NCBI GenBank assembly: GCA_905221615.1
Contig: CAJNDT010000962.1
Location: forward strand, 43,970 to 107,969
Length of the DNA stretch: 64,000 bases
Direction: 5' to 3'
Source: Symbiodinium sp. CCMP2592
Taxonomy: Eukaryota; Sar; Dinophyceae; Suessiales; Symbiodiniaceae
How positions within the stretch are numbered: position 1 is the first letter of the stretch; each line of letters starts with the position of its first letter. The notes beneath the pieces were generated by a model. The model saw only the letters and a program-made list of their open reading frames with translations, did no database searches and had not been told where the DNA came from. Made by a program: the position numbers and the translations under genes. Shown in pieces: positions 20,110-63,174 of this stretch.

Positions 20110-21273
20110 ATGGAGCATGATGCACAAGCAGCTGCACAGGCGCTAGCGCAAGCGCAAGCGCAGGCAGCTGCGATCCCGATGCCGGAGATCGATGATGATG
20201 GGCCCGAGTTGCAAGCAGCCCAGCAGAACCCTTTTAGTCCCGCGGCAAGCCCTAGCAACATGGGTATGGCACTTGAAGCAATGCTTAATCGAATGGCGTC
20301 CATGGTGGAAGCATCGACAAATGCCGCTTCAATTGCTGCCACAGCTGTGCAGTCAATGCACAATGCACAGAACATGTCAGGTGGCAGAGCTGGACTTGAA
20401 GGGCGTGACTTGCTTAAAATCCTCCCTAAGCCCGAGCCCTTTAAGGTTGACAAGGCCGAGGATGAGCATAGTCGCTGGCATAGTTGGTACTGGGTATTTA
20501 GACAGTTCTTGGTGGCAGTAGATCAAAACTTCGATGCTGAAATTTCTGAAGTAGAGCGATCCTTGAACACCCCAGTCTTGATTGTCAGTGCAGAGCAGCA
20601 AGCCAGGAGCTTTCAGCTGTATGCTCTCTTGAGTACCCTGATCAAGGGAAGGGCCTTCCAGACGGTGAAGCAGATCAGCCAGCAGCAGGGCTATGAAGCC
20701 TTGAGGATGCTGCTGTTGCAATTTCAGCCGCCCAGCAAAGTGAGGTCCTTGGGGATCCTTAGTGCGCTCACACAGATAAAAGGGTTCAACCCTAGGGAGC
20801 CTTATTTGCCACAAGTGTTGGAGTTGGAACGCGCTTTTGAGCAGTATTCCCTTGCCAGTGGCGAAGACGTGCAGCCTAGCCTCAAGAGTGCCTTGCTTTT
20901 GCGTTCGTTGTCAGGGGTGATGCGCCAACACATTTGTGCGTCGCTTCCTGAGGATGCTTCTTATGCTGTGCTGAGAGAAGCGGTCCTTCGCTACGAGCGT
21001 GTGCAGTTCAAGTGGGGTGCCGGGAATGTGTTTGCACAAGATAGCATGCTTCTTGGAAACAAGCATCATCAGGATGATGGCACCCAAATGGAGATAGATC
21101 GTCTTCAGATGAAAGGAAAAGGCAAAGGAGATGGAAAGGCCAAAGGCAAGGAAGGCAAAGGCGGCAAAGGTTATGGTGGCAAGGACAAAGGCAAAGGAGG
21201 TGGCAAAGGAAAAGGATGGGGCGCACAGGACTGGAAAGGGCATCAGAAAGGAGCGAAAGGAAAGGATCCCTAA
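20110..21273 (+). CDS. Copia gag (capsid region)
   Basis: This 387-codon ORF starts at an ATG 268 bp after the LTR. It has an Ala/Gln-rich N-terminus and then a helical capsid-like core (LLKILPKPEPFKVD, WHSWYWVFRQFLVAVD, LLLQFQPPSKVRSLGILSAL, YLPQVLELERAFEQY) typical of copia-type gag. It ends in a Gly/Lys-rich, nucleic-acid-binding-like tail and terminates at TAA just before the zinc knuckle, which lies in the +1 frame. Gag packages element RNA into particles. The tail repeats continue in the +1 frame, showing that the two ORFs are one protein by origin. Confidence 0.85.
   Translation: MEHDAQAAAQALAQAQAQAAAIPMPEIDDDGPELQAAQQNPFSPAASPSNMGMALEAMLNRMASMVEASTNAASIAATAVQSMHNAQNMSGGRAGLEGRDLLKILPKPEPFKVDKAEDEHSRWHSWYWVFRQFLVAVDQNFDAEISEVERSLNTPVLIVSAEQQARSFQLYALLSTLIKGRAFQTVKQISQQQGYEALRMLLLQFQPPSKVRSLGILSALTQIKGFNPREPYLPQVLELERAFEQYSLASGEDVQPSLKSALLLRSLSGVMRQHICASLPEDASYAVLREAVLRYERVQFKWGAGNVFAQDSMLLGNKHHQDDGTQMEIDRLQMKGKGKGDGKAKGKEGKGGKGYGGKDKGKGGGKGKGWGAQDWKGHQKGAKGKDP
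21268..21273 (+). promoter_or_regulatory. Candidate +1 frameshift site, CCC-UAA
   Basis: The gag frame ends ...GAT CCC TAA. A +1 slip of the proline tRNA from CCC to CCU continues as AAG GGA GCC AAG in the pol frame. A slippery codon followed by a slow stop codon is the layout of known +1 sites such as antizyme. The alternative is a simple one-base mutation. Confidence 0.5.
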
Positions 21274-24115: not shown

Positions 24116-26411
24116 CCTTTGGCTCTAGCGACGCCTCCAGCGCATTTTGTGCACGGCCAGGGCGGGGGGGGAGTTAGGCCCCTGCAAAGATCGCTAGCGC
24201 AGTGGCTTCATGGCACCAGAGAGCGAGGGCGGTGGATGGTCCTGTGGGTCAGGGCTCATGCTGCTGCTTTGCAAACTTCGTGACCAAGGAAATCCATGTG
24301 CTGAAGGGGCTCTCGCCTACTCGGGAGCTCTGGACCGGCTGAGGGCTGCTGTGGGTGGCAGCCTTGGCTACAATACTTCAGGAACCATGTGTGAGCTTCG
24401 AGAGGAGAGTGCCGTGAGTGATGAGCCCATTTTGGGCTGTGGTGAATCTGGCTGCAGCTGTGTGGCCACTTCTACCGGGAAGGGCGATCGCCTTCTTGTG
24501 AGCGAAAGTGCAGGTGATGTTGAGAATGGGAGCGAGTTGCAGGCGGCCTCAACGAGGACACCGTCTACGGCTCGATCCACCCGGGTGACTTCATGCAATG
24601 TCGGCGGCCGCGGCAGGGCGCTGGAACGAGATGGCCATTGTGGGCGGAGAGTTCGCTGGCGTCGGGGCTCGCAGTCTCGGCTTTGTGGCGACCGCTGCTC
24701 CTTTGGCCTTCGATTGAGGCCCAAGCTTCGTTTTCGCAGGGGCCTCGTGAGGAGGACCATCACCCGGCGCCCCAGGCGCTGGCTGCTTCATCGTGGACGC
24801 CTCGGCGGAGCTCTGTTGCAGGACTTCGTCGGTGCCGCTTCTTCAGGGGTTAGGGCGGTTAGGGTTGGGGTTTCTTGCTGCACTCGCGGGAGCCGGACCC
24901 AAGGACCGAGAAGACACAAATCAAGAAATGTACCAAAAGTGAGCAAAAGAACTTATGAAGATCCGAAGGAGGACAAAGAGCTGCCATTGGCAGTCAGAGC
25001 GGGCACTTGTTGCACATGTGCCACCCCCGAACCTCAAGCTGCTGTGCCTCCTCCGTTGCGCCATGGCATTGGAGGGACCAACACTTCAGGATGCGACTCC
25101 GATCCAGCCACTGAGAGCCGTGCTGCTGCTCCTGGTGGTCGGGTTGTTCCGAAAGGGCCGAGGAAATCCACTGGTGATGCGCAGCTGGCGGGCAACTCCG
25201 AGGCTTTCGCTGAGAATCGAGCCGTCTGCCGTGCTGCTCCGCCCGGTGGTCAAGTGCTTCCGAAAGGAGCGGGAATATCCACTGGTGCTGCGCAGCTGGT
25301 GGGCCTTTCTGCTTCTACTCCTGCCGATGGCCTTCAGGGCAGTGCTGGCCTTGCTGGAGGTGATCTTCAACTTTGTGTGAGCCGCCGTGTCGCTGCACAC
25401 AGCGGTCGAGGTGTACCGAAAGGGCCGAGATCCGCTAGTGCTGCGCGACTGGTGGACTCCTCGGCTTCTGCTTCTTCAGGTTGCGACTGCAAGACGGCCC
25501 CTGGATGCCGTGCCAATGGTGCTGGAGCTCTTCGCCAGGACCTTGCGGTGAGTGCTGCTAAGGGCTTAGGGCTTAGGGGTAAGGGTTCCTTGTGCTTTGT
25601 GCGGGAGCCGGACCCGAAAACCGAGAAGAGTGAAATCAAGAAATGTACAAAAAGTGAGACAAAGAACTGTGAAAGATCCCAAGGAGGACAAAGAGCTGCC
25701 ATTGGCAGTCACACTGGGCACTTGTGTTGCTTGCGCCACCCCCGAACCTCAAGCTGCGGTGCCTCTTCCTCTGCGCCATGGAGGGCCCACTGCTTCAGGA
25801 TGCGACTGCGGCGCTGGTGCTGGCGCCACCTTAGCCCGTCGGGCTCCCCTGGGCCTCCCTCGCGACTCCTGTGCCGCCATGGTGGTTCCCAGTGTGGGCG
25901 CGAGCTCTTCGACCTCTACTTTGGCTGCTGGGCTTGCTGCCGACGATTCGGCCTTCGGCGGTGAGGCTGACTCTGCTAGGCCTGGTGGGCCGTCTTGGTC
26001 CTCGGCTACTCCGGCGAAGGTTGGGCTCCGACCTGGTTCGAGGGCTACCGCTTCGACTACTTCAACTTGCTGTGCTGCGTGTTCCACGGCGGCTTTCACC
26101 ACCGCTGATCAGGGCAACGACGACGTGGACCTCCGAGACTGTGGCTTCAACGGCGTCTTCTACCAGTTTGAGGCTTCTCTCAAAAAATGGCCTGAGAAGG
26201 AGAAGCTACCCTGCCCCGGGACAGGCTTCCCAGGCTGTTCTTTTGGGCTACGCTTGGGCAAGGTGTTCGGCTCCTGCGGCTTCGACGGAGTGGCGGACCT
26301 TCGAGCGCTTGGGGTTGCTACATTGCTACTTCCTCGGCTACCTCAACCCGCCGTTCTACGTGGGCCGGTCCAGCTGGCAGGACAGGACTTGCATGTGTTT
26401 TCACGTCGGTC
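24116..26411 (+). other. LINE-OTU copy A 5' region, with long open leader (24210-25964)
   Basis: A 584-codon ORF (24210-25964) is open here, and 585 codons in copy B (36645-38402), differing by a few replacements and one in-frame 3-bp indel. The composition is low complexity and most of the few differences change the residue, so selection on a protein is not evident. It may be 5' UTR with an internal promoter, or an extra ORF. It contains a duplicated ~165-bp block and, at 25,830-26,350, sequence related to the 3' repeats. Confidence 0.5.
24889..25767 (+). repeat. Duplicated ~165-bp block in the LINE-OTU 5' region (copy A)
   Basis: Blocks at about 24889-25054 and 25604-25767 share ggagccggaccc, gaaatgtac.aaaagtgag, ggaggacaaagagctgccat and acccccgaacctcaagctgc. 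Both can encode DPKEDKELPLAV...CATPEPQAAVP. Copy B has the same pair at about 37324-37489 and 38040-38203. Confidence 0.85.
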
Positions 26412-46234: not shown

Positions 46235-48245
46235 GCGACTGTGCTTGTGCATGCATTGCTTAGGCGTGACGGTGCATGGTAGGCAGTGCATGTGCTCATG
46301 TGTGTATTCATGTCTGCGACTTGGTAGCTTCTTGCATGTTGCTCTGGGCAGGACTTTTGGTCAGGTGCTTCGATCGACTTGCCTTGCTTCAGGTTGCGGT
46401 CAGGACTGCGATGGCCTCGAGCGGTGCGGTGGTCTCTCCGTGGCTACGGTGGCGATGGCTGCGCTCCGGGTGTGCGGCGCCGGCGTGGGCAACACTTTAG
46501 CCCGCCGGGCTCCCCTGGGCCCCCCTTGCGACCTCTGTGCCGCCATGGTGGCTTCAAGCGCGGCTCCGAGGGCCTACGACTCCCTCGACTTCCACGCCTT
46601 GCTGCTCCTCGTGTGCTGCGACGGCTCCTCCTTCACGGGCGATCTGGATGTTTCCGTGGACTTTCGGGACTTTCGCTTCAACGGCGGCTTCTACCAGCTA
46701 GGGTGGCTCTTGGGCATGGTCTCCGACCCCTGCGACTTCGATGGTGTGGCGGACCTTCGGGTGGTTTGGTCGGCTACTTCCTCGACTACCTCAACTTGCT
46801 GCTCTACGTGTACCACGGTGTCTACTACACGGGCGACCTGGGCAACGACTATGTGGACCTTCGGGACTTTGGCTTCAACGGCGGCTTCTACTCGCAGGGG
46901 CTGCTCGAGGACCTGGTCTCTGGCCTTGCTGTTCCTCGTGTACCGCGGCGGCTACCACATGGGCGAGCTGGGCAACGACTACCTGGACCTTCGGGACTTT
47001 GGCTACAACGGCGTCTTCTACCAGTGGGGGCGGCTCGTGGGTCAGGTCTCGGGCTTGTGCGATTTTGGCGGAGTGGCGATCCTTCGACTTTGGTCGGCGG
47101 CTCCTTCTACTACTTCTACACGCTGTGCTTTGTGTACCACGGCGGCTACTACCACCGAGGCTCTGGGCAACGACTACCTGGACATCCGGGACTTTGGCTA
47201 CGACGGCGACTTCTACCAGTGGGGGCAGCCGGGCCTGGTCTCGGGCTTTTGCGACTGTGGCGGGCTGGCGAACCGGCACCTTTGGTCGGCGGCTTCTTCC
47301 ACTGCTTCAACGTGCTGTGCTTGGTGTACCACGGCGGCTTCTACCACTGAGGACCTGGGCTTCGACTACTTAGGCCTCCGGGACTGTGGCTTCAACGGTG
47401 ACCTTTACCAGTTGGGACTGCTCTTGGGCACGGTCTTTGCTGCTGGCGGCTGCGACGGAGAGGCGGACCTCTTTGTGCTTCGGTCGGCTACTTCCTCGCC
47501 TACCTCAACCTGCTGCTCTGCGTGTGCCATGGCAGCTACTGCGGGGGCGACCTTGACGACGACCTCGGGGACCTCTGGGACTTCGACTTCAACGGCGGCT
47601 TCTTCTCGCAGAGGTTGCTCAGAGGGCAGAGTCCATGGTCCCAGACACTGCTGAAGGATGCGATGCTGATGCTACGACACCCTGCACTTTCTGCTCTTTC
47701 AGCTTCGGCGAGCTCCTGGAGTGCTGCTGGCTTCGCCGCTGGCCTGCACGTCGACTGACTTCCTACGACGAGCTCTGCTGAAAGACCTGAGGCGACTTAA
47801 TTTGGTTTGAGTTTTTTGCATGTGTACATGACATGCTTCATGTCGGGCCTGCTTGACACGTCTTTTAAAGTCGTCTGCAACCCACCGTAGTTTCCGAGGC
47901 CCCTTCCCACAAAGAGTTAGGGCTTCGCAGGTAGTGCTTTCGAGGCCCCTTCTCACAAAGAGTTAGGGCTTTGTTTGGCAGTGTTTTATTTCTTCGCTTC
48001 GCTTGAGCTGTACTCTGTACTTGTACTTGTACTTTAGTGTCTCGCGAGGTGTCGTTGAACCTTTTAGTTCTGCTTCTGAAAACCAGTCGCTGGACTTTTG
48101 GAAAGGCTGTCACTCCACTACACAGAAGTGCCTGTGACTTTTGGCCGCGTGTTTCACACCGACGTGACCAGACCCAGGACTCGCATCCTGCATCGTGCGT
48201 GCTCTGCGCGCACTTTGTCTGGGGTTGCGAGAACTTTGACCGAAG
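46235..48245 (+). repeat. LINE-OTU copy B 3' region with ~195-bp repeats
   Basis: Repeat cores (tggaccttcgggactttggc variants) occur at about 46654, 46849, 46979, 47174, 47366 and 47556, with steps of 195, 130, 195, 192 and 190 bp. The array stays open in one frame to 47654. The tail from about 47760 matches copy A. Confidence 0.82.
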
Positions 48246-48260
48246 CATGATTGCATCAAG
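48246..48260 (+). other. LINE-OTU target-site duplication, copy 3 of 3
   Basis: catgattgcatcaag followed by gactttccttggg, where copia pol resumes in phase. Confidence 0.9.
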
Positions 48261-49982
48261 GACTTTCCTTGGGACCACCCAGGGTTTGTTGCAGGTGGGC
48301 TCGGCAAGATGCGCAAGCAACGGGAGGCCAAGCCAGTTGAAGCCGTTGCGGAACCAGCGGCTGATGAGGATGGTGTGCTCGGGCCTGTGAGCCCCTTGCT
48401 TGCCGGGCCAGGTGATGAAGCCGCTTCTGATCCCGAGACCAGCTTGAATTACTCACCCAGCCTTGATGCCGGAGAGCAGCAAAGCCAAGCTGCAGATGGA
48501 AGCACAGGTGAAAGCACCAGTAGCAGCAGTTCTAGCAGCAATGGTGATGATGGCAGTGGTGCAGCTGCTGGCAATGCGCCAGTTGAGCAGCCTGATGCTG
48601 CTATGCATAGTGCCGAGGTTGAGGTGCCACCAGGAGATGCGGGAGTGTCCAGCGCAGGCGGGGATGCAAGTGCTGAGGAACGTCCGCCCAAAGCAGCCAG
48701 ATTGCGTGCTGTAACACAGAGCGAATTTTACCACAATGATGCATCAATTGATTTTGATTTTGAGGATGCTGAGCTCGATGAGCTAGAAGGCTATGATTAT
48801 GGGCTGGCTGATTACTACTTCAGTGAAGAAGCAGGCGGATCTGATGCGCCACCAGATGAACTGTGGAGGCCATTTGGGCCCACAGAGCCATGCCTTTCGG
48901 AAGCCGAGATGCTGATGATTGACAGCGCAGCCGATGATTTTGAAATCCGTAGGCTGTTGGCTATGCAAGTGCTTGAAGCCCTTACCTATGAGGCAGCCGA
49001 GCAAGCCCAGACTGAAGGATCCAGAATGTTGTCAACGAAGTTTGTCAGAAGTTGGAGAATCAAGATGCGCAAATTTGCTGATGGAACTGAACAGCAGCAA
49101 TACCTGAGGCGTTCCCGTTTCGTGGGGCGTGAATACGCCTGGATGGACAAGGATCGCACCGAGTTGTTTGCTCCTGCTTCAGGTAGCCTGCTGACTCGAG
49201 TGCTGCCATCAGCCTTCATGAGGTCCAAGGGCGATGGCCATGCATGTTGTGTTCTTGACGTGGCAGACGCGTTTCTTACTGTCGACCAGCGCATACCAAC
49301 GGTCGTCAAGGCAAGCTTCGGAGATCAGCAGTCACATGTGCAGCACTTTCGCTTGTTGAAGCTCTTACCGGGGCAACGTGACGGAACCGTCCGTTGGCAT
49401 GAGTCGTTTACTGAGTATCTTGACAGCAAGCTTGGATTGGAGCCTTATGTGCCGTGCCCAGCACTCTTCAAGCTGAAGAATGTTGCTGTTGCTGGATTGT
49501 TGCATGTTGACGACTTGTTCAGTGAAGGACAGCGGAAAGGCTTGGATGTGATGGTGTCATGTGTCCAAGAGAAATACAAGTGCACGGTGAGCTGGCTTTG
49601 TGAGCATGGGGATGAGGTTTCATTTCTCAAGAAAGCATATCGGTTGGTGCGTGATGACCTGTTGATCATCCAACCTCACCCGCGCCACGTTGAGAAGCTG
49701 GTTGAAATGTTCAATCTCAGCCGTGCGAGGAGCAAGTCCAGTCCTTTGCCGACCACTCTGCCGGTTGACGGTTCAGAGCTTGATAGTGAACAGAGTTCGA
49801 TGTTTCGCACCGCGGTCGGCGTGCTCCTTTATTTGCAGTCAGACGTGATTGAGGCGCAATTTGGGATCCGGTGGCTGGCTCAACACATGAGCCGCCCGAC
49901 TGCTGGAGCGCTGCGTGTGCTGAAGCACATAATCCTTTACCTGAGGGACACTAGTGGTTACGCCATAGGCTTCCCACCATAG
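48261..49982 (+). CDS. Copia pol, 3' part: linker and reverse transcriptase
   Basis: The codons at 48261 are in phase with the copia integrase frame that stops at 24115, so this is the rest of the same ORF; an ATG at 48309 is internal. An acidic, Ser/Ala-rich linker (to about 48900) precedes a copia-type reverse transcriptase (RVT_2): YLRRSRFVGREYAWMDKD, VLDVADAFLTVDQ, GLLHVDDLFSEGQ (HVDD in place of YVDD) and the later RTAVGVLLYLQ. The ORF meets TAG at 49980, but homology continues one base back as IGIGVS, so a single-base deletion is likely. Confidence 0.88.
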   Translation, partial: DFPWDHPGFVAGGLGKMRKQREAKPVEAVAEPAADEDGVLGPVSPLLAGPGDEAASDPETSLNYSPSLDAGEQQSQAADGSTGESTSSSSSSSNGDDGSGAAAGNAPVEQPDAAMHSAEVEVPPGDAGVSSAGGDASAEERPPKAARLRAVTQSEFYHNDASIDFDFEDAELDELEGYDYGLADYYFSEEAGGSDAPPDELWRPFGPTEPCLSEAEMLMIDSAADDFEIRRLLAMQVLEALTYEAAEQAQTEGSRMLSTKFVRSWRIKMRKFADGTEQQQYLRRSRFVGREYAWMDKDRTELFAPASGSLLTRVLPSAFMRSKGDGHACCVLDVADAFLTVDQRIPTVVKASFGDQQSHVQHFRLLKLLPGQRDGTVRWHESFTEYLDSKLGLEPYVPCPALFKLKNVAVAGLLHVDDLFSEGQRKGLDVMVSCVQEKYKCTVSWLCEHGDEVSFLKKAYRLVRDDLLIIQPHPRHVEKLVEMFNLSRARSKSSPLPTTLPVDGSELDSEQSSMFRTAVGVLLYLQSDVIEAQFGIRWLAQHMSRPTAGALRVLKHIILYLRDTSGYAIGFPP

Positions 49983-49984
49983 GC

Positions 49985-51388
49985 ATAGGGGTTAGTGTGC
50001 AAAGCAAGTCAGGGCTTGATGTGCTGGAAACGCACACAGACGCCGACTGGGCTGGGGATAAGGTGCATCGGAAGTCGGTATCAGGATGCGTGATAACCTT
50101 GAACAGTCACTTGCTAAGCAGCAGCAGCAGGACACAGAAATCGATTGCACTCAGCTCAGGTGAAAGTGAATATGCCAGTGCCGTTTCCGGAACATGTGAT
50201 CAAGTGTTTATCCGCAATGCTGTGGAGTTTGTTCTTGGAACGAAGGTCGAGTCGCATTTGCTGCTCGACTCAGCGGCAGCCAGGGGAGTGATCGCCCGTC
50301 AGGGGGCAGGCAGAATCAGACACTTGGAAGCGAAGATGTTATGGCTGCAACAGTATGCCCGTGAGAGCCTCCAGGTGCACCCTGTTGATGGCAAGCACAA
50401 TGTTTCTGACCTTGGAACGAAAAGCCTCCAAGGACCCAGGATCAAGGCACTGTTGCACAAGGTCGGAATCCGCGATGCCAATGATGATTATGCGCTTGTG
50501 GGCAATGAAGAGTTCCAGAACCTTCTTGATGGAAACACGGTGCGCAAGCTGGTGCGATTGGTCAAGCAGCAGGGCAATGCAGGCAATTCTGTTGGATTGC
50601 AAGTCGCAATGATTGTCTTATCGCACGCCTTGAGCCAGCATTCCGTTGCAGCCGCAGCGGACAGCGAGGAACAAGATGTCACAGATGATGGCACAGATAG
50701 AATGCACAGCGTCTTCCAGCAAGTACTGGAGATGATCATGCTTGTGTTCACTTTTGCAGGTGAGTATGCCCAGCTGTATCCGATTGCAGCCACGAGCTTT
50801 GTGCAAGGCTTTATGTGGGTGATCCTGATGTGCTTTGGATGGTGCATGTGTCGAAGGCGCAATGTGAACTTGAGCATGCGGGGTGATGCGTCAGGAGATG
50901 AGCCCGTATCTCCTGCATCGCCACGCGGTGCCAGGAGCAAAAGAATAAGCAAGCCACCCAAACGCAGTTATGATGATGACGATGATGGAGCACGCGGTGG
51001 CAGTGACATTGGTGCTGAAGTGCCAAGCAGCAGCCATGAATCGCCAGGTCGTCTGAACTTCAATGTGCCGTTGAATCCAGGAGCTTCGGTCAAACTTGAG
51101 GTGTCGAGTGGATGTGGAAGTGACAAGCCGCCGAGCAGCGCGGCCAGTGTCAACAGTGTCAACAGTGCAGGGGACTCCGAAGTCCCACGTGCCAGACGTC
51201 CACCCGTGAGGCCCAAGCCCAAGGCCAGGGATCATGCAGATGATGAAGTGTGGGTTTCAGGTGCCCAAGGCTACTGTTACCACAAGGCTGGATGCGGAAA
51301 GCTTAACCAGAGCAACACAGTGACGTCCACCACAAGGCGTTTGGCTGAGAGCCGTGGATACCGCGGTTGCAAGATATGCAATCCATGA
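49985..51388 (+). CDS. Copia RNase H plus C-terminal extension (membrane helix and Ada-like zinc finger)
   Basis: Frame -1 relative to the RT. RNase H: THTDADWAGDKVHRKSVSG, LSSGESEYASAV, LLLDSAAARGV and GKHNVSDLGTKSL are the copia D,E,D,D blocks (50020-50430). About 300 further residues follow. Two hydrophobic stretches lie near 50730-50850 (the second WVILMCFGWCMC then RRR), then a Ser/Pro-rich acidic linker, and finally YCYHKAGCGKL...RGYRGCKICNP, a four-Cys pattern like Ada-type metal-binding fingers. Possible roles are membrane association and nucleic-acid binding (inference). Confidence 0.78.
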   Translation: MGVSVQSKSGLDVLETHTDADWAGDKVHRKSVSGCVITLNSHLLSSSSRTQKSIALSSGESEYASAVSGTCDQVFIRNAVEFVLGTKVESHLLLDSAAARGVIARQGAGRIRHLEAKMLWLQQYARESLQVHPVDGKHNVSDLGTKSLQGPRIKALLHKVGIRDANDDYALVGNEEFQNLLDGNTVRKLVRLVKQQGNAGNSVGLQVAMIVLSHALSQHSVAAAADSEEQDVTDDGTDRMHSVFQQVLEMIMLVFTFAGEYAQLYPIAATSFVQGFMWVILMCFGWCMCRRRNVNLSMRGDASGDEPVSPASPRGARSKRISKPPKRSYDDDDDGARGGSDIGAEVPSSSHESPGRLNFNVPLNPGASVKLEVSSGCGSDKPPSSAASVNSVNSAGDSEVPRARRPPVRPKPKARDHADDEVWVSGAQGYCYHKAGCGKLNQSNTVTSTTRRLAESRGYRGCKICNP

Positions 51389-52139: not shown

Positions 52140-52320
52140 CCACCTGAGAGCGGTAAGGCAATGAAGCGATAAGCTCATCGAGCGTTTTCCAGAAGCCACG
52201 ACGTCTCTGATAGATCTGTTGGAGCTTGGCAGAATCGCCAAAGCCCATGGCATGCTGGTAGGCGCACACAAGGTCGATGTGTTGACCAGCGCCAAAGCAT
52301 CGCATCTGCAGCAGTCTACC
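52135..52320 (-). CDS. LINE-USP ORF2, endonuclease middle segment
   Basis: These 62 in-frame codons read on the minus strand include QHIDLVCAYQHAMGFGDSAK and RRRGFWKTLDELIASLPYRS and end in QVVL, which joins exactly to GGDMNC at 19683. The segment is a 186-bp island of LINE sequence between the copia 3' LTR and the first repeat of the Ngaro-like element. Its last five bases (TAAGA on the + strand) are the copia target duplication. Confidence 0.85.
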
Positions 52321-52449
52321 GGTATGTGTGCTTGCTCACGAGTGTTTGGTAATGTTTTGCATGCTTGCTGCACTCCATGACATTCCATGTACATTGCAGC
52401 AAGCAGGCTCGCAGCTGCCAGCTCGCCTGCATCGCAGGCTAAAATTTGT
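52321..52449 (+). repeat. Split direct repeat A1
   Basis: ggtatgtgtgcttgctcacg... is the same as A2 at 61774-61903 except for one extra A near the end of A2. Confidence 0.92.
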
Positions 52450-52563
52450 AGGCTTAACAGGCCTTTCTTTGCAAGCCCTCTAGAACAGCTCTGGAGGCCT
52501 CCAATCTGTGTGGAGTTTAGCTTCACTACATTCCTCTCCCGCTCGCGATAGGGGGAGGAGTGC

Positions 52564-55200
52564 ATGGTTTTCAGGCCAGCTGATTTTGCGGTGCTCTGTT
52601 GCATTTATTGCTTCATTTGCATTATGGAACAGTCAGTGCCTGTGAGTGATTCGTCAGTGCCTGAGTATGCTGATGATCCTGCATTGGGCAATGACATGGC
52701 TGATCTTGATCAATCTCGTTGCATTGTCAAACGGTTCCAGAAGCGGACCTCGTCTCAGCAGGATGTTTCTACACTGGCGGGGGCCTCTCCTTCGTCAGAG
52801 GTTCTTGCATCTGTGGTTTCATCCCTGCAGGGCGGTCAGGATGAGTGCCTTGCACCTCCAGCTTTAGCTGTGTCCGACAGTGATGAGCCGGTTGTGATTT
52901 CCTTTTCTGCTGCATTGGACCTGGCTGCTCAGAGCGAGGAACCCGAGACGCCTGTGCCCCTGGACAACCACACAGGCGAGTCGCGACCACCGTCGCCAGT
53001 TTACGACCCGGATTATGAGTTGGTAGATCCATTGGATGTTTCCCTGGAACTTTCTGCTTTAGCTGATAAATCTGGTTCTTCTTCGTGGGGGCTGGTCTCG
53101 CCAGCGCCTGAGACACCACCTGCATCTGTGGCACCGGAGGCTTTGCATTTCTCTCCTCTTCGTGTGGGGCGACTGTCTTTGGAGAATGCTGTCAGGGAAA
53201 TTACGGATCCTTTGTTGCCGGCCTTTTCTCAGCCGGCACTTGCGCTTTGTCCAGCTGCTTTGGAAATCCCACCGAAGACCGCTCCATTGGCTCGCCCGGT
53301 TCATCTGAGTGAGTCCAAGGGCCGGGCTATGAGTTTGCATTCTTCAGTGGCGAGGTCTAGTGAGTCGGCCAGATCTCGACCGGCTTTTGCACTCAGAGCA
53401 TCCCTGGGGATACCTAAGGCGGTGCCCAAGCCTCGGCCGGTCCCCTCGGCTCGTGGAGCTTATGCATCATACCCTTCCGAGCGGTTGCATTCGGCTGCCC
53501 AGGAATCGGGGGCGGTCTCTAAGAGCTCGCCTACCCCTCAGCACACTGCTTTGTCTTGGTCTCCGACCGTGAACCCAGGTACTTCATCTCACAAGAAGCA
53601 GGCCACTGCTCCTGGCACCAAGCGAAGCATCGAGCTTATTCATTCTGGAGAGCCCAAGGACAACTCTAAAGTGGTCAAGCAAGCTGAGATTCATTCCAAG
53701 CAATGGGCACGTGCATTACACCTGTGGGGTGAACTTTGTGCTTTCGCACTGCCGTGTTCTACATTACTTCGCGATGTGTTCGGCAGCCCTAACAAAGGTG
53801 CTTTATTGGAGCAATTGCTCCGTCGGGTTTCGGACACGACCGCTGTGAGATACATTGCTGTTGTTTGGCAGTGGCTGCATACTGTCACAGATCTTGGTTT
53901 TGACATTGCATTGCTGACACAGGTTCAGTTGATTGATGCGATACATACACTTCAACTGTCCCGTCGACATCATTCGTCGGTCCATTCTATCAACGTACTC
54001 AAGGCTGTGCGATGGTTTTCATCAACGGTCCGCCCTGCGGGCTTCCCCAACCTATATGATGGTCTGTTCCATGCTAGGTCTTGGCAGTCCCAGACTGCAT
54101 CCAAAGAGGCCTTGCCTCTTCCATTGGCTTTCATGCTTTGGATGGAAACCCAAGTCGTTTTTGGTTACTTTACACTTGAGGAAACTGCTTTTGCTGGTAG
54201 TGTTCTGGCTTGCATTTGGTGTAGTCTGCGATTTGGCGACAGTCAGCACATCCAGTTGTCTGATTTGTACATTGACTTCGACAGCTTCCGGGGTGCATCA
54301 TACCGCACAAAGACACAGAAGTACATGGCATTCGGCTGCCTCCATTCAGGCCTGCTGAGGTTACCTCGCCAGCATTGCTGGCTTATGCATTGGTTGCTGT
54401 CTGTTGAGAAACTGCTGGATCTCCAGCCTGGAGCCCATTCTATTCCCGACTACATTTTCTTTCTGATCGAGGCGGGTTGCATCAGACCTTTGACGTATGC
54501 AGAGTGCCTTTCAAAGCTCAGGGCCTTGCTTTGCATGTGGAATCAGCTTCCACCTGGACAAGAGCTACAATACACTCTCCATTCCATGAAAGTTACATTA
54601 CTTGCTTTCTTTAGGCAGCTTAACATGCCTCTGGAAGCACGGCACCTTCAGGGCCACCACAAACATTCTGCATCGTGTGCATTATATGGGCGGGACGACG
54701 TGTCCCCTCTCCTTATCACGCAGGACACCTTTATTGATAAGGTCAGGGCAGGCTGGAAGTCGCGAACCCCACTGATGCGTGGTGTTGCATTCATGCCTTG
54801 CGAACCAGACATGCAGTGGCCCCCTGATCTTGGGGCGATTTTACATTCGGCAGTCCCGACCTTCTTCAGGTTGGATGCCTTGCCAGGTTCGTCGACTTTG
54901 TCATCGGATGTGCACTCAGCGGCACCCTCTCCTCCTGTCAAGATTGCATCATTGCCTTTGGCTTCCACCCGCGAACAGGTTCCGGAAGAAGCTGAGACTT
55001 CTTCATCGGAAGACGATCTTGGCCCGGCGGAGGAGATTGCATTTCTTAGTGCATCCACTAGCAACATTATACATGCTTGCATCGAAGGCCGTCCGGCTTG
55101 CGGCTGCCGGGGCACTTTTCACTTGGTCTCGCACCCACCTGAGGGATCGCGATTTTGCAAGTCCAAACCTTGCATTTCTATTCTCACGAACCTTTCGTGA
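52564..55200 (+). CDS. Tyrosine recombinase of the Ngaro-like element
   Basis: 878 codons. Residues 1-370 are Ser/Pro/acid-rich and probably disordered. A helical core-binding domain spans about 380-500 (DTTAVRYIAVVWQWLHTVTD). A catalytic domain spans about 520-720: CSLRFGDSQHIQLSDL (Arg556), YRTKTQKY (the beta-strand Lys), HSMKVTLLAFFRQL (His673, with Lys676 where many recombinases have Arg), GHHKHSAS, and CALYGRDD (nucleophile Tyr708). The C-terminus ends in a Cys-rich stretch (CIEGRPACGCRG). It would integrate circular cDNA by strand exchange, which fits the absence of a target duplication. Its position before gag and pol is unusual: in known DIRS/Ngaro elements the recombinase usually follows RT and RNase H. 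Confidence 0.85.
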   Translation: MVFRPADFAVLCCIYCFICIMEQSVPVSDSSVPEYADDPALGNDMADLDQSRCIVKRFQKRTSSQQDVSTLAGASPSSEVLASVVSSLQGGQDECLAPPALAVSDSDEPVVISFSAALDLAAQSEEPETPVPLDNHTGESRPPSPVYDPDYELVDPLDVSLELSALADKSGSSSWGLVSPAPETPPASVAPEALHFSPLRVGRLSLENAVREITDPLLPAFSQPALALCPAALEIPPKTAPLARPVHLSESKGRAMSLHSSVARSSESARSRPAFALRASLGIPKAVPKPRPVPSARGAYASYPSERLHSAAQESGAVSKSSPTPQHTALSWSPTVNPGTSSHKKQATAPGTKRSIELIHSGEPKDNSKVVKQAEIHSKQWARALHLWGELCAFALPCSTLLRDVFGSPNKGALLEQLLRRVSDTTAVRYIAVVWQWLHTVTDLGFDIALLTQVQLIDAIHTLQLSRRHHSSVHSINVLKAVRWFSSTVRPAGFPNLYDGLFHARSWQSQTASKEALPLPLAFMLWMETQVVFGYFTLEETAFAGSVLACIWCSLRFGDSQHIQLSDLYIDFDSFRGASYRTKTQKYMAFGCLHSGLLRLPRQHCWLMHWLLSVEKLLDLQPGAHSIPDYIFFLIEAGCIRPLTYAECLSKLRALLCMWNQLPPGQELQYTLHSMKVTLLAFFRQLNMPLEARHLQGHHKHSASCALYGRDDVSPLLITQDTFIDKVRAGWKSRTPLMRGVAFMPCEPDMQWPPDLGAILHSAVPTFFRLDALPGSSTLSSDVHSAAPSPPVKIASLPLASTREQVPEEAETSSSEDDLGPAEEIAFLSASTSNIIHACIEGRPACGCRGTFHLVSHPPEGSRFCKSKPCISILTNLS

Positions 55201-56260: not shown

Positions 56261-56734
56261 CAGCCCTCGGAGTTAGCTGTGTCTACTCCATTGCTTCGGC
56301 TGCCACCACGGCGCCCAGACAGCACCTCCCAGCGAGGGAGCGAAAAAATGGCGACTGGGCTAACTGATTGCATTCTCAGCTTGCATCTGCTGATGTGTTG
56401 ATCCTTAAGGGCGGCACAATCAACACCGTGATGTTGCATCGCTTTTTGGCCTCAGCGATTGCCATGATACATCACGCTCGAAGACACGATTTTGCAACCC
56501 CTCTATTTCAGCGATAGGCCTTTTGCATTTCTTGACGACTGCATGAGCACATCTCACTTGCATCTGTGAGTCTCAGCTTCCCTGGCATTCATACCAGTGC
56601 TGAACCAGCACAGTAGTGCTGGCTTGATTTTCTCCGCGATCGGTGCATTCGCACCATTTTACAGGCCTGAGGTATGTGCATCACTTTGCTTGTTCATCTG
56701 GTGCATTTGTCAGGTCGTTATCACTCGGGGGAGT
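56261..56734 (+). other. Spacer before gag
   Basis: No recognisable feature. The tetramer tgcatt is frequent here and throughout this element. Confidence 0.4.
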
Positions 56735-57936
56735 ATGTCTTCCCCCAGTCTGGAGCAAATCCTCAAAGAGGAAAAAGTTCCTGATCTCATTGCTGGGCAG
56801 ATCACTTCGCAGCTCACCGTGCGTTCGTTTCCTTGCATCTGCGAAGGTATGGAAACCCTGCCCGATTGCATCAAGGATGTCTTGGACGTCCCGGGCCAAG
56901 CACTGCTCAATACTGTCTCCTTGGCGTGCTTGAAGGCAGCATACCATCGCTGCATTTCTTCGGTTATTTCGACTTCACCTGCAGCTACATCTGCACCTGC
57001 AGCATCGAGCGGTGGAGCTCTCAGTACATCGTCGTGGAATGAGCCCTTTCCTGCGAAGCTGAGTACGGAGCGGGTGAATACCATGAGGGCTACATTCGAA
57101 GCCTCATACCCGTCTGAAATTCTTGATGCATCCAGTATGCCTTCGTCGCGACTCCTTGCATCATGCAATAAGCAAGTGCAGGACAAGCACTATTCATACA
57201 TTGCATGGAAGTTTAGACTCAGCGAAGAGAAACAGGAAGACGTGACTTCATCCAGACCGAAGAAGATCACACGTCTTGACGACTTCATTTTCGACGATGT
57301 CCCGTGCAGGGACATCGCTGATACTGGCGTGTCGCAAATGTTCCTTTCGCATTTGTTAGACTTGATCGCCTTTGCATTTTGCTTATTAGAAGTCGCTCAC
57401 CTCAGTTCATTTCGGGCGTACAACAAGCTTTTCATTAAGCTTGCATTCCATCGTCCGCCGCCGGAGTCTGGGCTGAGAAGTCCAAACGTCTCCGAAATGC
57501 AGGCAGCGGATAAAGAAGCTTGGAAATGCATTTGCGAACTCGTGAACAAAGGATGGTGCATCGATGATGCATTACATGAGATCGTGCAAGTTCGTTGCAT
57601 TTTGCAGAGTCACCTACAGCCCAGAGTCTTCATTCAGAAGACCAAGCGACCCAGCATTGGATCGGGTCATACCACCCAGCCTGAAAATCCACTCCCAAAG
57701 GCAAGGGTGGAAAAGGCAAGGGCAAACATGGCAAGTCCAAGGACAATAAAGACCAGGGTGGCCCCAAGTGGATGGTTTCATTCTATGAGAACGGTGTGCA
57801 AAAGCAGATGTGCAAGCGTTGGAACCTTCGTTCAGGTTGCAAGCTGGATGACTGTGCATTTGTGCATGGTTGTGCTGTGGATGTCGGGGGCAAACCCTGT
57901 GGGAAAGACCACCCAGCCTATATGCATAAGTCCTGA
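56735..57936 (+). CDS. Gag-like protein of the Ngaro-like element, with -1 frameshift into a CCCH zinc finger
   Basis: From the ATG at 56735 (MSSPSLEQILKEEKVPDLIA) frame 2 encodes a helical gag-like body: WNEPFPAKLSTERVNTMRA, FEASYPSEILDASSMPSSRLL, YIAWKFRLSEEKQ. Conserved-looking coding continues to about 57690. From 57700 frame 1 carries a Gly/Lys-rich stretch and CKRWNLRSGCKLDDCAFVH, a CCCH-type zinc finger, then GKPCGKDHPAYMHKS and TGA at 57934-57936. The switch coincides with a C CCA AAG heptamer. Without the shift, frame 2 runs on to 58168 in unrelated sequence. The shifted product would be about 400 residues. CCCH fingers in this position would bind element RNA. Confidence 0.7.
57694..57700 (+). 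promoter_or_regulatory. Candidate -1 programmed frameshift heptamer, C CCA AAG
   Basis: In the gag frame the codons are CTC CCA AAG, giving the X XXY YYZ pattern CCCAAAG. A -1 slip continues as GGC AAG GGT in the frame of the CCCH finger and pol. No downstream structure was assessed. Confidence 0.5.
57934..57936 (+). promoter_or_regulatory. In-frame UGA between gag finger and pol (candidate readthrough)
   Basis: The frame of the CCCH finger ends TCC TGA GAC and the same frame is then open to 61488. Pol could be made by readthrough of this UGA or by re-initiation at the ATG at 57952. Confidence 0.45.
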
Positions 57937-60900
57937 GACAGCCCGAAATCTGTGGAGGGGCAGCTTTCTGGACCTACATCCCTCACACCCTCTTTGGAGC
58001 CGTCAGCGGGCCATACATCCACCTCTGACACTGATATTCTTGATTTGCTTCAGCAGACTTTTACATTCAATACAATCAAGTACAGATGGCAGGCCATTGA
58101 GGGGGATCGTCCCGATGCTTCTTACTTCAACCTTGGTGGTTTTTCTCAGTCGGTGCGTTTCGGCCTGACCAATCATACATTCCAATTTCAGCAGATATTA
58201 TGCCGCCTTAATGCTTGGTTGGGCATGCTTTTTCCATTAGGTACCTGGACATCGATCTGTGTTTCCCACAATGAAATGCTGAAGGTGCATCGCGACACAT
58301 CTAATGAGCCGGGTACCCTCAATTATACTGCTGCATTGGGAGATTTTTCTGGCGGAGGTCTATTGCTTGAGTCATCCTCTGGTGATCGTTCTCTGCATGT
58401 GGAGGCCTTGCAGAAATGCATTTCCTTTTCTGTGATTGACACCAGGTCCTCACCCCTTGCATTTGATGGCGGTCTTTGGCATGCAACGGAGCCCTTTGTG
58501 GGGGACAGGTGGGTTGTTACAGCCTACACCTGTAGACGGTTGAACGAGTTTCAATCATCAGACCTGGATGCTTTGCGAATGTGGGGTTTTCCATTGCCCG
58601 GTGAATCCCTGCCTAGGAAGGTTCCTCGACCTCCTGCTGTCGAGCTTCCTCAACCTGACCTACCTCAGAAGTTTTGCCTTCTGTTGGCATCCCAGCAATC
58701 TGCTACCCTTCGTGCGGGCCTTTCAACTGCGGGTCTGCCTCATGTCTGCATTGACTCCCTGGAACAGGAAGCTGTCAGGCACCCGGTTTTTCGTTGTGCT
58801 GGGGAAGGTGTTTTTGCATCTATTTTCATTGTCTACTCGTCGGCTTGGAGCGACAGCCACACTCGCTGGGTCCTTCAACTTTGCAAGGTGGCGTACTCTG
58901 CAGGTGCCACAGTGCATTTCGATATTTCAGGTTGGAGCCAATGCTGGTCTGATCAATTTTTCCTTCACTGCATTTCAACCGGTCTTCAGCACATCGTGCA
59001 AGTTCCGGCATGTGCCTACAAAGGGGTTGGCAGTAGCCCCTGGATTATGATTTCTTCCTCTGCTTCTTTTTCTGCACTGGGGCACCCTTGCTCCTGTGGT
59101 CGGTGCCGCTCATCTTCTACACTTTCCGATTATCCTCCAGCCTTTGTGGAGGCACTTTTCGAGATTTTGCGTATATCCAACCTTCGCTGCTGCTCAGGTC
59201 AATGTGACTTCTCCATTGATGAGGCTTGGTCTTGCATTCCGGTCAAGCAGTGTGATGCTCCCCCACATGCTTGGGTGGATGGCGGTGGTCTTAACAGCCG
59301 CCCTGATTGGAGTGGCAAGGACCGCTCCACCTCGGATGTTTTCAAATCCTTGCGGCATGCATTGATTGCTTGGTGTGGCAAAGCATGCATTCCTTCCAGG
59401 TTGCGACATAAACTATTGCATCCATCTGAGGCACATCTTTTCTCGGCTAATGAAATTGAAGAGCTTCGCGAGCTCTTCGGCACCTGGCTTACATCTCAGG
59501 GATGCAAAGATGTTGACTGGCGTATTAAGGAGGGCCAGCCATATTGCCTTCATTCCCTCTCTGCATTGTCCTCAGCTCTTCAGGATGCGGACATGACCTT
59601 GTTCAATGCATTGCTCAGTGGGGTTCCCACTGGCTTCAAACACGATATCCCGGTATCGGGGGTTTTTGCCCCCTCTGGTCGCACTGCCTCTGAGGATGCA
59701 TTGACTGTATGTGAAGAGAATTGGCAGGGAGCCGAGGATGACCCGGTGCTCCTCGAGGAACTGGTCCAAATCGAGGTGGACAAGGGCTGGTTACAATACA
59801 TTGAGTCTTTGGAGGCTGCCCGCACAATCTGGCCCAACGTGGCTGTTGGTAAGCTTAACATTGTGCATTCGGAAGGCCGCAAGCCTCGGCTGGTTGTTGA
59901 TTCCTCCATTTGCGGTACAAATGCATCATGCCTCATTCCTGAACGCTCAGCACTTCCTACATTACAGACTATCCAGGCTGCCTGGCCTTTGCGTGTGAAG
60001 CACGAACCTATGGCAGCCTGGTCTCTCGATGTTCAAGCAGCACACAAGTCCATTATGGTTCGTGAGTCTGAACAGGGCCTCCTTGGCATCAGGGTTGGTC
60101 CCAAGCTTTATTTCTATAAAGTTTGTCCATTCGGCGCTGCATTTTCTGCATTCTGGTTTGCGAGACTTGGTGCATTTTTCGTTCGGACTCTTCATCGTCT
60201 GATCTTCATTGCTCACTTCCTCGCCATGTATGTGGACGATTTGCTTGGATTCCAATCTGCATCGGTGGCCGAGATGAGTTTTTGCATTACCCTATGCTTC
60301 TGTGGAGCCTTTTCCATTCCTTTATCGTGGAAGAAATTGCAGTTCGGCTGCTCCATCCGCTGGATAGGATGGGAGCTCAATTTCGGCATGGGTTGCGTTT
60401 CTATTCCTTCTGACAAACTTGAGAGGTTGCATTCGGTCATTGTTTCAGCCCTGCGTGGCAAGTACACTGACCGTTCCACATTGCACAAGCTGTGTGGCAT
60501 GTTACAATGGCTTTTCAAGCTTTTTCCCTTGGCGAGGCCATGGCTCCGGTCCCTTTATCAGGACCTCAACACTCCTCGTGCCACCAATTTCAGTGTTCGT
60601 CAGGCTGATTGGCAATCTTTCATTTCATGTCTCAATGACAACTTGCATCTTGTCAGGTTGCCTTCGGGGGCTGCCATCACTGTTGGCAGTCGAGTCCTTG
60701 CAGTTCGGCATCGCAAGGTCAGCAGTAAGAGAGAGCTCTTGTCCTGCAACCTTGGCGATAAGGATATTTGGCTTCGCATTGCCGACTCTGCTTCCAAACG
60801 ACGTGCATTGAGCCCGGCTTCTCGTTATCTGCTATTTTTCTGGCTGCAATGGTCTTCATTGCCTCCTATCTGGCAATCGCTGCGTCCGATTGACCATATA

Positions 60901-61488
60901 TTGGTGGAAGCTGCTGCTGATGCCATGGGCAGTGGTCGTACATTTGCTTTTGGCGGCTATATTGCATTGCCTGCTGGGGAATTCTGGTTCTCCGAACGCT
61001 TTTCTGTGGAGGATTTTGCATTTGCTGAGCTCCCTCTCAAATCGGAAGCACACAAGGACATTACATGCTATGAGTGCCTTGGTCAGATTGCATTAGTGTG
61101 GCTTTTGAGTGCGGTGAACCCAGGATGCAAACTTTCAGTTCGAATGCATTCTTGGTGCGATAACAGTGGGGCTGAAGCCACTGCGAACAAGTTATTCACT
61201 ACATCGTGGCCTCTTGCTGCATTTGTGCAGCGACTGGCCATTTTGAGCAGTTTTACTGGTATCCATCTCGATGTACATCACATTGCAGGTCCGAAAAATG
61301 CGGAAGCAGACTTTCTGAGTCGCTGGCTTCCTCCTGCTGCTTTACCTGCTCGATGGCAAATGTCAAGACGTCGTCGCATTCCTTTGACGTCCTTATGGAC
61401 TGCGTCGCCTTCCATTTCAGTTTCACCTGCTGATTGGAAACCGTCTTTCCGCATTCCGAGTGTCTCTCCATTAGGAGCAGCACTCTGA
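57937..61488 (+). CDS. Pol of the Ngaro-like element: 2OG-Fe(II) dioxygenase-like domain, reverse transcriptase, RNase H
   Basis: The first ATG is at 57952 (1,178 codons from there); numbering uses it. Residues about 30-200 look like a double-stranded beta-helix dioxygenase: HNEMLKVHRDTSN (His113, Asp115), ALGDFSGGGLLLES, FDGGLWHATEPFVGDRW (His177, Arg186). This HxD...H-x8-R pattern would bind Fe(II) and 2-oxoglutarate. A middle part (about 240-420) begins FCLLLASQQSATLRAGL and has Cys pairs; a degenerate methyltransferase-like fold is possible but weak. Reverse transcriptase at about 620-830: RKPRLVVDSSICGTNASC, AAWSLDVQAAHKSIMV, YKVCPFGAAFSAFWFARL, LAMYVDDLLGF (Asp762/763). RNase H at about 985-1140: VEAAADAMGSG, CYECLGQIAL, WCDNSGAEA, HHIAGPKNAEADFLSRW. 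RT and RNase H are of DIRS/Ngaro type. Confidence 0.82.
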   Translation, partial: DSPKSVEGQLSGPTSLTPSLEPSAGHTSTSDTDILDLLQQTFTFNTIKYRWQAIEGDRPDASYFNLGGFSQSVRFGLTNHTFQFQQILCRLNAWLGMLFPLGTWTSICVSHNEMLKVHRDTSNEPGTLNYTAALGDFSGGGLLLESSSGDRSLHVEALQKCISFSVIDTRSSPLAFDGGLWHATEPFVGDRWVVTAYTCRRLNEFQSSDLDALRMWGFPLPGESLPRKVPRPPAVELPQPDLPQKFCLLLASQQSATLRAGLSTAGLPHVCIDSLEQEAVRHPVFRCAGEGVFASIFIVYSSAWSDSHTRWVLQLCKVAYSAGATVHFDISGWSQCWSDQFFLHCISTGLQHIVQVPACAYKGVGSSPWIMISSSASFSALGHPCSCGRCRSSSTLSDYPPAFVEALFEILRISNLRCCSGQCDFSIDEAWSCIPVKQCDAPPHAWVDGGGLNSRPDWSGKDRSTSDVFKSLRHALIAWCGKACIPSRLRHKLLHPSEAHLFSANEIEELRELFGTWLTSQGCKDVDWRIKEGQPYCLHSLSALSSALQDADMTLFNALLSGVPTGFKHDIPVSGVFAPSGRTASEDALTVCEENWQGAEDDPVLLEELVQIEVDKGWLQYIESLEAARTIWPNVAVGKLNIVHSEGRKPRLVVDSSICGTNASCLIPERSALPTLQTIQAAWPLRVKHEPMAAWSLDVQAAHKSIMVRESEQGLLGIRVGPKLYFYKVCPFGAAFSAFWFARLGAFFVRTLHRLIFIAHFLAMYVDDLLGFQSASVAEMSFCITLCFCGAFSIPLSWKKLQFGCSIRWIGWELNFGMGCVSIPSDKLERLHSVIVSALRGKYTDRSTLHKLCGMLQWLFKLFPLARPWLRSLYQDLNTPRATNFSVRQADWQSFISCLNDNLHLVRLPSGAAITVGSRVLAVRHRKVSSKRELLSCNLGDKDIWLRIADSASKRRALSPASRYLLFFWLQWSSLPPIWQSLRPIDHILVEAAADAMGSGRTFAFGGYIALPAGEFWFSERFSVEDFAFAELPLKSEAHKDITCYECLGQIALVWLLSAVNPGCKLSVRMHSWCDNSGAEATANKLFTTSWPLAAFVQRLAILSSFTGIHLDVHHIAGPKNAEADFLSRWLPPAALPARWQMSRRRRIPLTSLWTASPSISVSPADWKPSFRIPSVSPLGAAL

Positions 61489-61557: not shown

Positions 61558-61773
61558 TGGGGGAAAACATGCAGATCTGTTTCACTGCAAGGTCCATTCC
61601 TTGCTCGGACAGAACGATCTGCATTCCCGCCAGAGAACAAAGGAGCGAGTGTTTGCGAGTGACTGCATCAATTCCATTTGAATATTCCTTTTGAATATTT
61701 CCTTTGCTTTATATGTATTTCCATTACATATAAAGCTGCATATAGGAAGCAGCTGCGAATACATTAACCGAAC
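61558..61773 (+). repeat. Split direct repeat B1
   Basis: 216 bp, tgggggaaaacatgcagatc ... cattaaccgaac. Matches B2 with one visible change (gaatac against gaacac). Confidence 0.92.
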
Positions 61774-61903
61774 GGTATGTGTGCTTGCTCACGAGTGTTT
61801 GGTAATGTTTTGCATGCTTGCTGCACTCCATGACATTCCATGTACATTGCAGCAAGCAGGCTCGCAGCTGCCAGCTCGCCTGCATCGCAGGCTAAAAATT
61901 TGT
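61774..61903 (+). repeat. Split direct repeat A2
   Basis: Directly abuts B1 (…gaac/ggtatg…) and matches A1. Confidence 0.92.
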
Positions 61904-62109: not shown

Positions 62110-62325
62110 TGGGGGAAAACATGCAGATCTGTTTCACTGCAAGGTCCATTCCTTGCTCGGACAGAACGATCTGCATTCCCGCCAGAGAACAAAGGAGCGA
62201 GTGTTTGCGAGTGACTGCATCAATTCCATTTGAATATTCCTTTTGAATATTTCCTTTGCTTTATATGTATTTCCATTACATATAAAGCTGCATATAGGAA
62301 GCAGCTGCGAACACATTAACCGAAC
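62110..62325 (+). repeat. Split direct repeat B2
   Basis: 216 bp matching B1. Its end ...ccgaac abuts LINE-USP sequence cgggatgtgctc. Confidence 0.92.
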
Positions 62326-62736
62326 CGGGATGTGCTCTTGCCAATTAATGCTGTCCGCACGCGAAAAGCGTGCCCTGACCCCGATCATAACCCCCGCAGA
62401 GTTGGCTCTGGCAGAGGCAGAGTGGCAGAAGTGCCATCCTCGCTCCGACCATTCCATGGTGCGTGACCAGTGCGTTTCTTGCAGCATTACTGCATCTACT
62501 TCGTCATGACGATCAAGCCAGCAGAGAAGCTCATTATAAAGAGTTGAAGATAAACCATCGCAGTTCCACGAAAAGATCTTAAATCTCGAACCTGGTTCGG
62601 TGGAAGTGGTGGGAAGAATAGGCGTTGGTGCTGATACGGAGCCCGTAGCTCGTGCCTTCCCGACCGCCCTTCTCAGCGAAAGCTTCCGCACAACTCCGAA
62701 GGTCTGCGCGGGAATGTGCGCCCTGTCGTTCGCCAC
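62326..62736 (-). CDS. LINE-USP ORF2, endonuclease N-terminal segment
   Basis: Minus-strand reading frame with FKIFSWNCDGLSS (strand 1 and catalytic Asn of the endonuclease/exonuclease/phosphatase fold), VDAVMLQETHW (catalytic Glu) and ANSAGVMIGVRA. It ends ...WQEHIP at 62326 and joins in frame to the segment at 52320. The start is uncertain: 62736 is a GTG position, and a true ATG may lie upstream in another arrangement. Confidence 0.8.
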
Positions 62737-63174
62737 ACAGGGTGTGGCTTATGCCCAGGGCTGCAATGCCTACCCTCGTGCCCGCAGCGCATGTTGATGT
62801 CGACTGGTATTGATGTTCCTGCTGCGTCCGGACTTGGGACCGGAGTGAGCACTGATCTCCGATGCAATCCCGTGACCTGTGCATAGCCTGGAGATCACTG
62901 GTATTGAGCCTGAAGTCGGGGGGAGGTTGTTGCGAGGGAGTTGTGGACAGAATGGGAAAGTATGCTCGAATACCATTCTGAGACATAGTGGTTCACAGAG
63001 CGTGCGCTGCAACGAGGGGGGGGTCTCCATGCGGGGAAAGATGAAGCAAGTTTCCTCAATAATTCGAGGAGTGTCAGCGTTGGGCCAAAGATCAGGTGGC
63101 CGGGATATGGTATGCTGAATGCTTGAATCGCGCAGCGGAGTTGTCGATCACTGCGTACAGCGTCAGGGCGCGCA
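62737..63174 (-). other. Probable 5' part of LINE-USP
   Basis: Upstream of the endonuclease on the minus strand. Minus-strand ORFs at 62579-62986 and 62895-63236 are open but unrecognised (the latter contains CAIQAFSIPYPGHLIFGP). They may be LINE leader or ORF1 remains; the LINE 5' boundary is not determined. Confidence 0.35.

Follow-up and report, generated by a model that had tools for sequence, protein, structure and literature searches.

The window analysed here is a 64,000-nucleotide stretch of the dinoflagellate Symbiodinium sp. CCMP2592 (contig CAJNDT010000962.1, positions 43,970 to 107,969), numbered from its first letter. Between positions 52320 and 62341 of the forward strand lies a retroelement whose polyprotein (Pol) opens with a 2-oxoglutarate (2OG)-Fe(II) oxygenase domain and continues into a reverse transcriptase (RT). 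The element is bounded by split direct repeats in the order A1, genes, B1, A2, B2. A1 (52320–52449) and A2 (61773–61903) are 99% identical over 131 columns, and B1 (61558–61788) and B2 (62110–62341), which forms the right end of the element, are 98% identical. Split direct repeats are the layout of Ngaro/DIRS-type tyrosine-recombinase (YR) retroelements, and the window element shows this arrangement.

All genes of the element are on the forward strand. The first is an open frame of 882 residues (52552–55200), a probable tyrosine recombinase in which R..K..HxxK..H..Y-type residues can be recognized by eye; it had no match in Pfam and no useful match in a PDB search. This frame precedes gag and pol both in the window and in another genomic copy, L031; the classical Ngaro order is different. 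A gag-like frame follows (56570–57690, from three-frame translation), and a segment resembling a CCCH zinc finger by eye (57700–57936) forms the gag end. In the window copy, the frame shifts near 57690, shortly before this zinc-finger-like end, where L031 has a single gag frame of 444 residues; a long unbroken gag is also seen in most close copies. The Pol frame (57937–61488) encodes 1183 residues, as in many close copies. It comprises the oxygenase domain (58027–58599), a decayed C5-methylase-like domain (58663–59124), an RT core (60019–60375), and a candidate RNase H-like region (60880–61350; VEAAADAMG, CDNSGAE, and HHIAG..AD by eye). The RT core matches PF00078 at E 2e-4, below the curated cut-off, which the RT of a related Pol, L033, passes (E 3e-10).

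The 2OG-Fe(II) oxygenases share an HxD...H triad followed by an Arg or Lys. Counted from 57937, the corresponding residues are His118 (58288–58290) and Asp120 (58294–58296), which make up the putative metal-binding HxD motif (58288–58296), and the distal His182 (58480–58482) and Arg191 (58507–58509), which lie within 58480–58509 and would serve in metal and 2OG binding, respectively. The GDFSGGGLLLES turn is present as well. A first-pass annotation of the sequence had described this pattern with identical spacing, all its residue numbers being 5 too low. In an alignment of 14 rows (A3), built from seven window and genome sequences and segments from 7 proteins out of the 45 found, the two His, the Asp, and the Arg are invariant (columns H88, D90, H152, and R161). 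HRD..N occurs in 30/30 close genomic copies, the search pattern itself having required H-x-D, and the H-x8-R spacing is kept in 29 of them (exception, L004). Some of the proteins excluded from A3 are defective: the motif is incomplete in P0007 and P0008, P0009 and P0045 begin downstream of HxD, the domain is cut short at its end in P0015 and P0037, and Arg replaces the distal His in P0040 and P0043. Four public gene models (P0005, P0006, P0007, and P0008) are apparent chimeras or have an incomplete oxygenase, and annotation of this kind may therefore obscure the domain.

A structure model of the domain was predicted with high scores (predicted local distance difference test, 91.2; predicted template modeling score, 0.88). 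The predicted fold is a double-stranded β-helix: a search with this model gave 74 PDB matches at E ≤ 0.001, the best 50 of which are 2OG oxygenases, among them TET and AlkB-type enzymes. The order of the strands and the matched folds suggest that His118, Asp120, and His182 converge on a metal site. The closest solved structure is NgTet1, and Tets rank first in each of four PDB fold comparisons, with a lead of about 1 Z unit or a small factor in E. An AlkB-like enzyme would remove alkyl groups, such as those of 1-methyladenine, 3-methylcytosine, or N6-methyladenine, from the RNA or complementary DNA (cDNA) of the element, and demethylation of this kind has been proposed for the AlkB domains of RNA-virus polyproteins. 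We consider such an enzyme unlikely here, given that Tets lead all four comparisons, that none of the 14 A3 members matches an AlkB Pfam model whereas 3/14 weakly match Tet_JBP, and that the C5-methylase neighbor in related Pols described below points to C5 chemistry. In a profile test, weak because it used one AlkB sequence, E. coli AlkB gave E 0.85 against the family.

Profile comparisons with other 2OG oxygenases were run with hhalign rather than HHpred, and the matches exceeded those obtained with shuffled profiles. A phage TET/JBP profile was assembled from six sequences, namely S-CBWM1 gp8 (PF12851, E 4e-18) and its tblastn relatives. A3 matched it over 185 columns (Prob 64.6, E 8e-6, score 30.8; maximum of 60 shuffled-column profiles, 10.6), and HRD..N, the glycine turn, the distal His, and the Arg all fall at matching positions; a linker with no relation to the domain gave 0.65. 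The same alignment scored 23.9 (E 1.6e-4) against a six-sequence profile of PKHD hydroxylases, for which the shuffled maximum was 5.4. This last match, together with the single A3 member that matches 2OG-FeII_Oxy_3 (1/14, E 0.0036) and the presence of PiuC and PHD2 among the fold matches, speaks for a PKHD- or prolyl-hydroxylase-like enzyme that would hydroxylate Gag, the capsid, or a host protein. Such a protein hydroxylase nonetheless appears improbable, being outranked by Tets in the four fold comparisons and by TET/JBP in the full 14-row profile, while the methylase neighbor suggests a nucleic acid substrate. Membership of the 2OG-Fe(II) oxygenase superfamily is supported by both fold and sequence, and the fusion of such an oxygenase to an RT in a Ngaro-like element, as read in the first pass, is borne out by the fold model and the split direct repeats. 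Searches of phages with the oxygenase domain (tblastn) returned chance matches only, and a scan of viral contigs found no relatives of the domain. The invariant Asn at position His+11, considered as a thymine-specificity residue by analogy with Asp337 of CcTET, was dropped because an Asn is common nearby in the phage TET/JBP alignment.

The neighbor of the oxygenase is best seen in five related Pols, L032–L036, available as pieces of 4 to 6 kb. Directly after the oxygenase, these Pols carry a domain with LEICSG/LDICCG/DLFAG, (A/S)PPC, and ENP/EQP in order (APSC instead of APPC in L036), and G11, P65, C67, E130, and P132 are invariant in their five-row alignment (A6). Motifs I, IV (PC), and VI (ENx/EQx) of C5-cytosine methylases are thus found in order in L032–L036. 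An RT follows the methylase; besides L033, Pfam detects it weakly in L032 (E 4e-4) and does not find it in L034 and L035, where, as in L036, the RT was recognized by eye. The methylase profile of these Pols matches gp30 of Mycobacterium phage Marvin in hhalign (Prob 97.5, E 3e-11), a protein that Pfam assigns to the C5-cytosine methylases (PF00145) at E 8.6e-5, just above cut-off; direct Pfam and PDB profile searches with the domain gave no methylase match. A tblastn search with L034 gave weak matches (E 0.5–8) to 22 phage records. Among the best 20 of these 22, 18 are annotated as DNA methyltransferase, 17 of them from related Mycobacterium phages; of the other two, one is this gene under the name conserved phage protein and one is a recombination endonuclease. 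The corresponding domain of the window matches the methylase of the related Pols at E 8e-5 (linker controls, 0.12 and 0.75) and DNMT3 structures in Foldseek at E 3e-3 to 7e-3. It did not match the phage methylases (E 0.47–0.94), and the Gly of motif I, PPC, and E-P are absent from the window copy.

The domain is abundant and under constraint. A search of the genome of the same organism (1.098 Gb, 5383 contigs) yielded at least 150 matches: all 150 scored of 4747 candidates matched, the weakest at E ~2e-28. This number is a lower bound, and a few copies are split over two rows. Among the 71 top rows (≥82% identity), 56 belong to frames of 1000 residues or more, and in 40 the frame has exactly 1183 residues; at 33–42% identity, many frames have 1244–1310 residues and one has 1759. 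All relatives that bear organism names come from Symbiodinium species. The wide spread anticipated in the first pass is supported. Between the window and L031, ratios of nonsynonymous to synonymous divergence (dN/dS) were 0.041 for the oxygenase, 0.082 for the middle domain, 0.126 for the linker, and 0.050 for the RT. Between the window and L002 (dS 0.2–0.4), they were 0.085, 0.159, 0.147, and 0.009, respectively. One could imagine that the domain is structural and keeps its fold only for nucleic acid binding, much as the adjoining methylase is decayed yet constrained (dN/dS 0.08 between the window and L031). We regard this as very improbable, since all 14 rows retain the metal and cosubstrate residues, despite identities to the window domain of only 28–59% in most rows; the decayed methylase, by contrast, has lost its motifs. 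The proportion of synonymous differences between L031 and L018 is 0.15 in the oxygenase and 0.48–0.62 in the other parts of Pol that were compared, a sign that the two copies may have exchanged sequence in the oxygenase region by recombination or conversion.

The junction upstream of the domain is also conserved. Gag and Pol share one frame, split by a single stop within 57931–57942, immediately ahead of pol. This stop is TGA (AAG TCC TGA) in 30/30 close copies (L001–L030), which are not independent, many being near-identical, and at least 359 open codons precede it in 27/30. L032 has TAG at the junction; in its sister L037 a sense codon stands there, and gag and pol form one frame of 1759 residues. 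A single conserved stop between in-frame gag and Pol suggests stop-codon readthrough.

The oxygenase domain also occurs in other carriers. A copia-type query gave 14 proteins including itself, of which 10 bear a precomputed PF07727 mark (Ty1/copia RT), most of these being named RE1, RE2, GIP, or Copia protein; one protein, P0010, matches RVT_2 at E 3.5e-14, above cut-off. The copia oxygenase domain is linked to the remaining family at E 3e-31 (hhalign). P0022 and P0023 represent a third carrier type, with a methylase-like stretch that matches the methylase of the related Pols at E 2e-6.

Taken together, we think it likely that the Pol N-terminus is a catalytically intact TET/JBP-type 2OG-Fe(II) oxygenase of a DIRS/Ngaro-like retroelement, one that would oxidize the C5-methyl group of pyrimidines, most probably that of 5-methylcytosine (5mC). 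Its target may be the cDNA or the integrated copy of the element, and oxidation could alter how host methylation or silencing recognizes the element, to the possible benefit of the latter. Because related Pols join a C5 methylase and the oxygenase in one polyprotein, methylation and oxidation could succeed each other on one DNA. In the window family, where the methylase has decayed, the oxidase would depend on 5mC made by the host or take another base, for example thymine. Both thymine and 5mC are reported substrates of NgTet1 (PMC12344493), so thymine may be a substrate here too.

Several observations weigh against this assignment. Judged by its motifs, the methylase neighbor in the window family is decayed. 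Sequence searches of Pfam, PDB, PHROGs, and NCBIfam with the window domain gave nothing significant: alone, it has no Pfam match, and the PDB sequence-profile search found no Tet. Tet_JBP (PF12851) is matched weakly by the three A3 members mentioned above (best E 0.042), and comparisons with each of the six phage TET/JBP proteins on its own yield E values from 0.009 to 0.72. In structure, AlkB and FTO are only about 1 Z unit behind NgTet1 and TET2, and CcTet is on a par with AlkB (10.7). When the copia rows and P0022 are left out, the remaining ten rows score 16.3 (E 0.004) against TET/JBP and 23.9 (E 1.6e-4) against PKHD, and a profile of just the three copia rows matches neither family (6.4 and 1.9). 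The order of the two families thus flips with the set of rows, and sequence does not decide between them; as to the TET/JBP kinship proposed in the first-pass annotation, TET enzymes are the best structural match by a narrow margin, and the sequence profiles are split (30.8 to 23.9 and 16.3 to 23.9). An oxygenase and methylase traveling as one module in copia was considered and rejected, as the stretch after the copia domain shows no methylase homology (E 0.88); three of the 10 copia proteins, P0009, and P0030, having no motif match, were left out of this test. Constraint is also uneven between pairs: dN/dS between L034 and L035 is higher for the oxygenase (0.117) than for the methylase (0.040), and between L032 and L037 it is 0.33 for the oxygenase at a dS of 0.06. 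For the window and L031, dS is near saturation (1.1–1.8; oxygenase, 1.8).

A more far-reaching idea is that one polyprotein writes and oxidizes a mark on its own cDNA and that the copies supply much of the oxidized pyrimidine of dinoflagellate repeats. The C5 methylase would make 5mC, which the TET-like domain would convert to 5-hydroxymethylcytosine; with a decayed methylase, as in the window, the oxidase would act on host 5mC or thymine. Given a very large copy number, the oxidized pyrimidine might include 5-hydroxymethyluracil (5hmU). We consider this idea doubtful. The CpG ratio is 0.65 in the element and 0.80 in the rest of the window, a slight depletion that is confounded by composition.

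Other putative mobile elements surround this locus. A frame on the reverse strand (62134–62748), in which NCDGL and HWS can be read by eye, resembles a long interspersed nuclear element (LINE) endonuclease and extends into the right end of the element. Judged by eye from open frames, two near-identical long LINE-like units stand in tandem at 26196–47654, flanked on either side by copia-like units (~21113–24283 and ~48240–51388, by eye).

Transposons that carry base-modifying enzymes are informative about the encounter between mobile DNA and host silencing. The present domain is carried by two unrelated classes of retroelement, and one of them joins it to a C5 methylase and an RT in a single polyprotein, which makes self-marking directly testable; it also provides concrete candidate enzymes for oxidized bases in dinoflagellates. 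In Breviolum, repeats are enriched in 5hmU (PMC11071213). The passages of that map concerned with 5hmU name no enzyme for it, and its main text lacks the words JBP and dioxygenase and uses TET only as a promoter name. In the open-access literature, at the level of titles and the beginnings of abstracts and with preprints outside its scope, we found no TET-like domain in dinoflagellate retroelements. Passages of PMC12344493 mention DNMT3 in copia and DIRS elements and do not mention TET there, and the main text of de Mendoza 2018 does not contain the words TET, JBP, or dioxygenase (PMC5890265).

TET/JBP domains in transposons are already known from fungal DNA transposons, and what appears new is a TET-like domain in dinoflagellate retroelements. 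As described in parts of a 2025 survey (Kojima 2025, PMC12730594), the fungal elements likewise captured TET/JBP dioxygenases that passed between element types; the fungal carriers are DNA transposons and Helitrons, whereas those found here are a YR-type element and Ty1/copia polyproteins. The survey offers a possible reason for the lack of TET/JBP in retrotransposons, and it states that phages often encode a C5 methylase and TET/JBP together. The phage hypermodification genes resemble the present case in that the oxygenase stands beside other base-modifying genes, as in S-CBWM1, where gp8 adjoins a TET-associated glycosyltransferase. In phages these are separate genes, whereas in the window and the related Pols they are domains of one RT polyprotein. 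The passages on SymbioDIRS-Dnmt3 (PMC5890265) describe another Symbiodinium element of DIRS type. Its repeats are arranged A-coding-B-A-B, its recombinase has a frame of its own, and its Pol contains a DNA-modifying domain; it comes in two structures in which the order of recombinase and Pol is shuffled. Its extra domain is Dnmt3, whereas the window element has a TET-like oxygenase and a decayed methylase, and the related Pols a C5 methylase. With Ngaro/DIRS retrotransposons in general, the window element shares the A1...B1-A2-B2 repeats, an RT, a probable RNase H, and a separate recombinase-like frame; it differs from them in having this frame upstream of gag and in a Pol that opens with an oxygenase.
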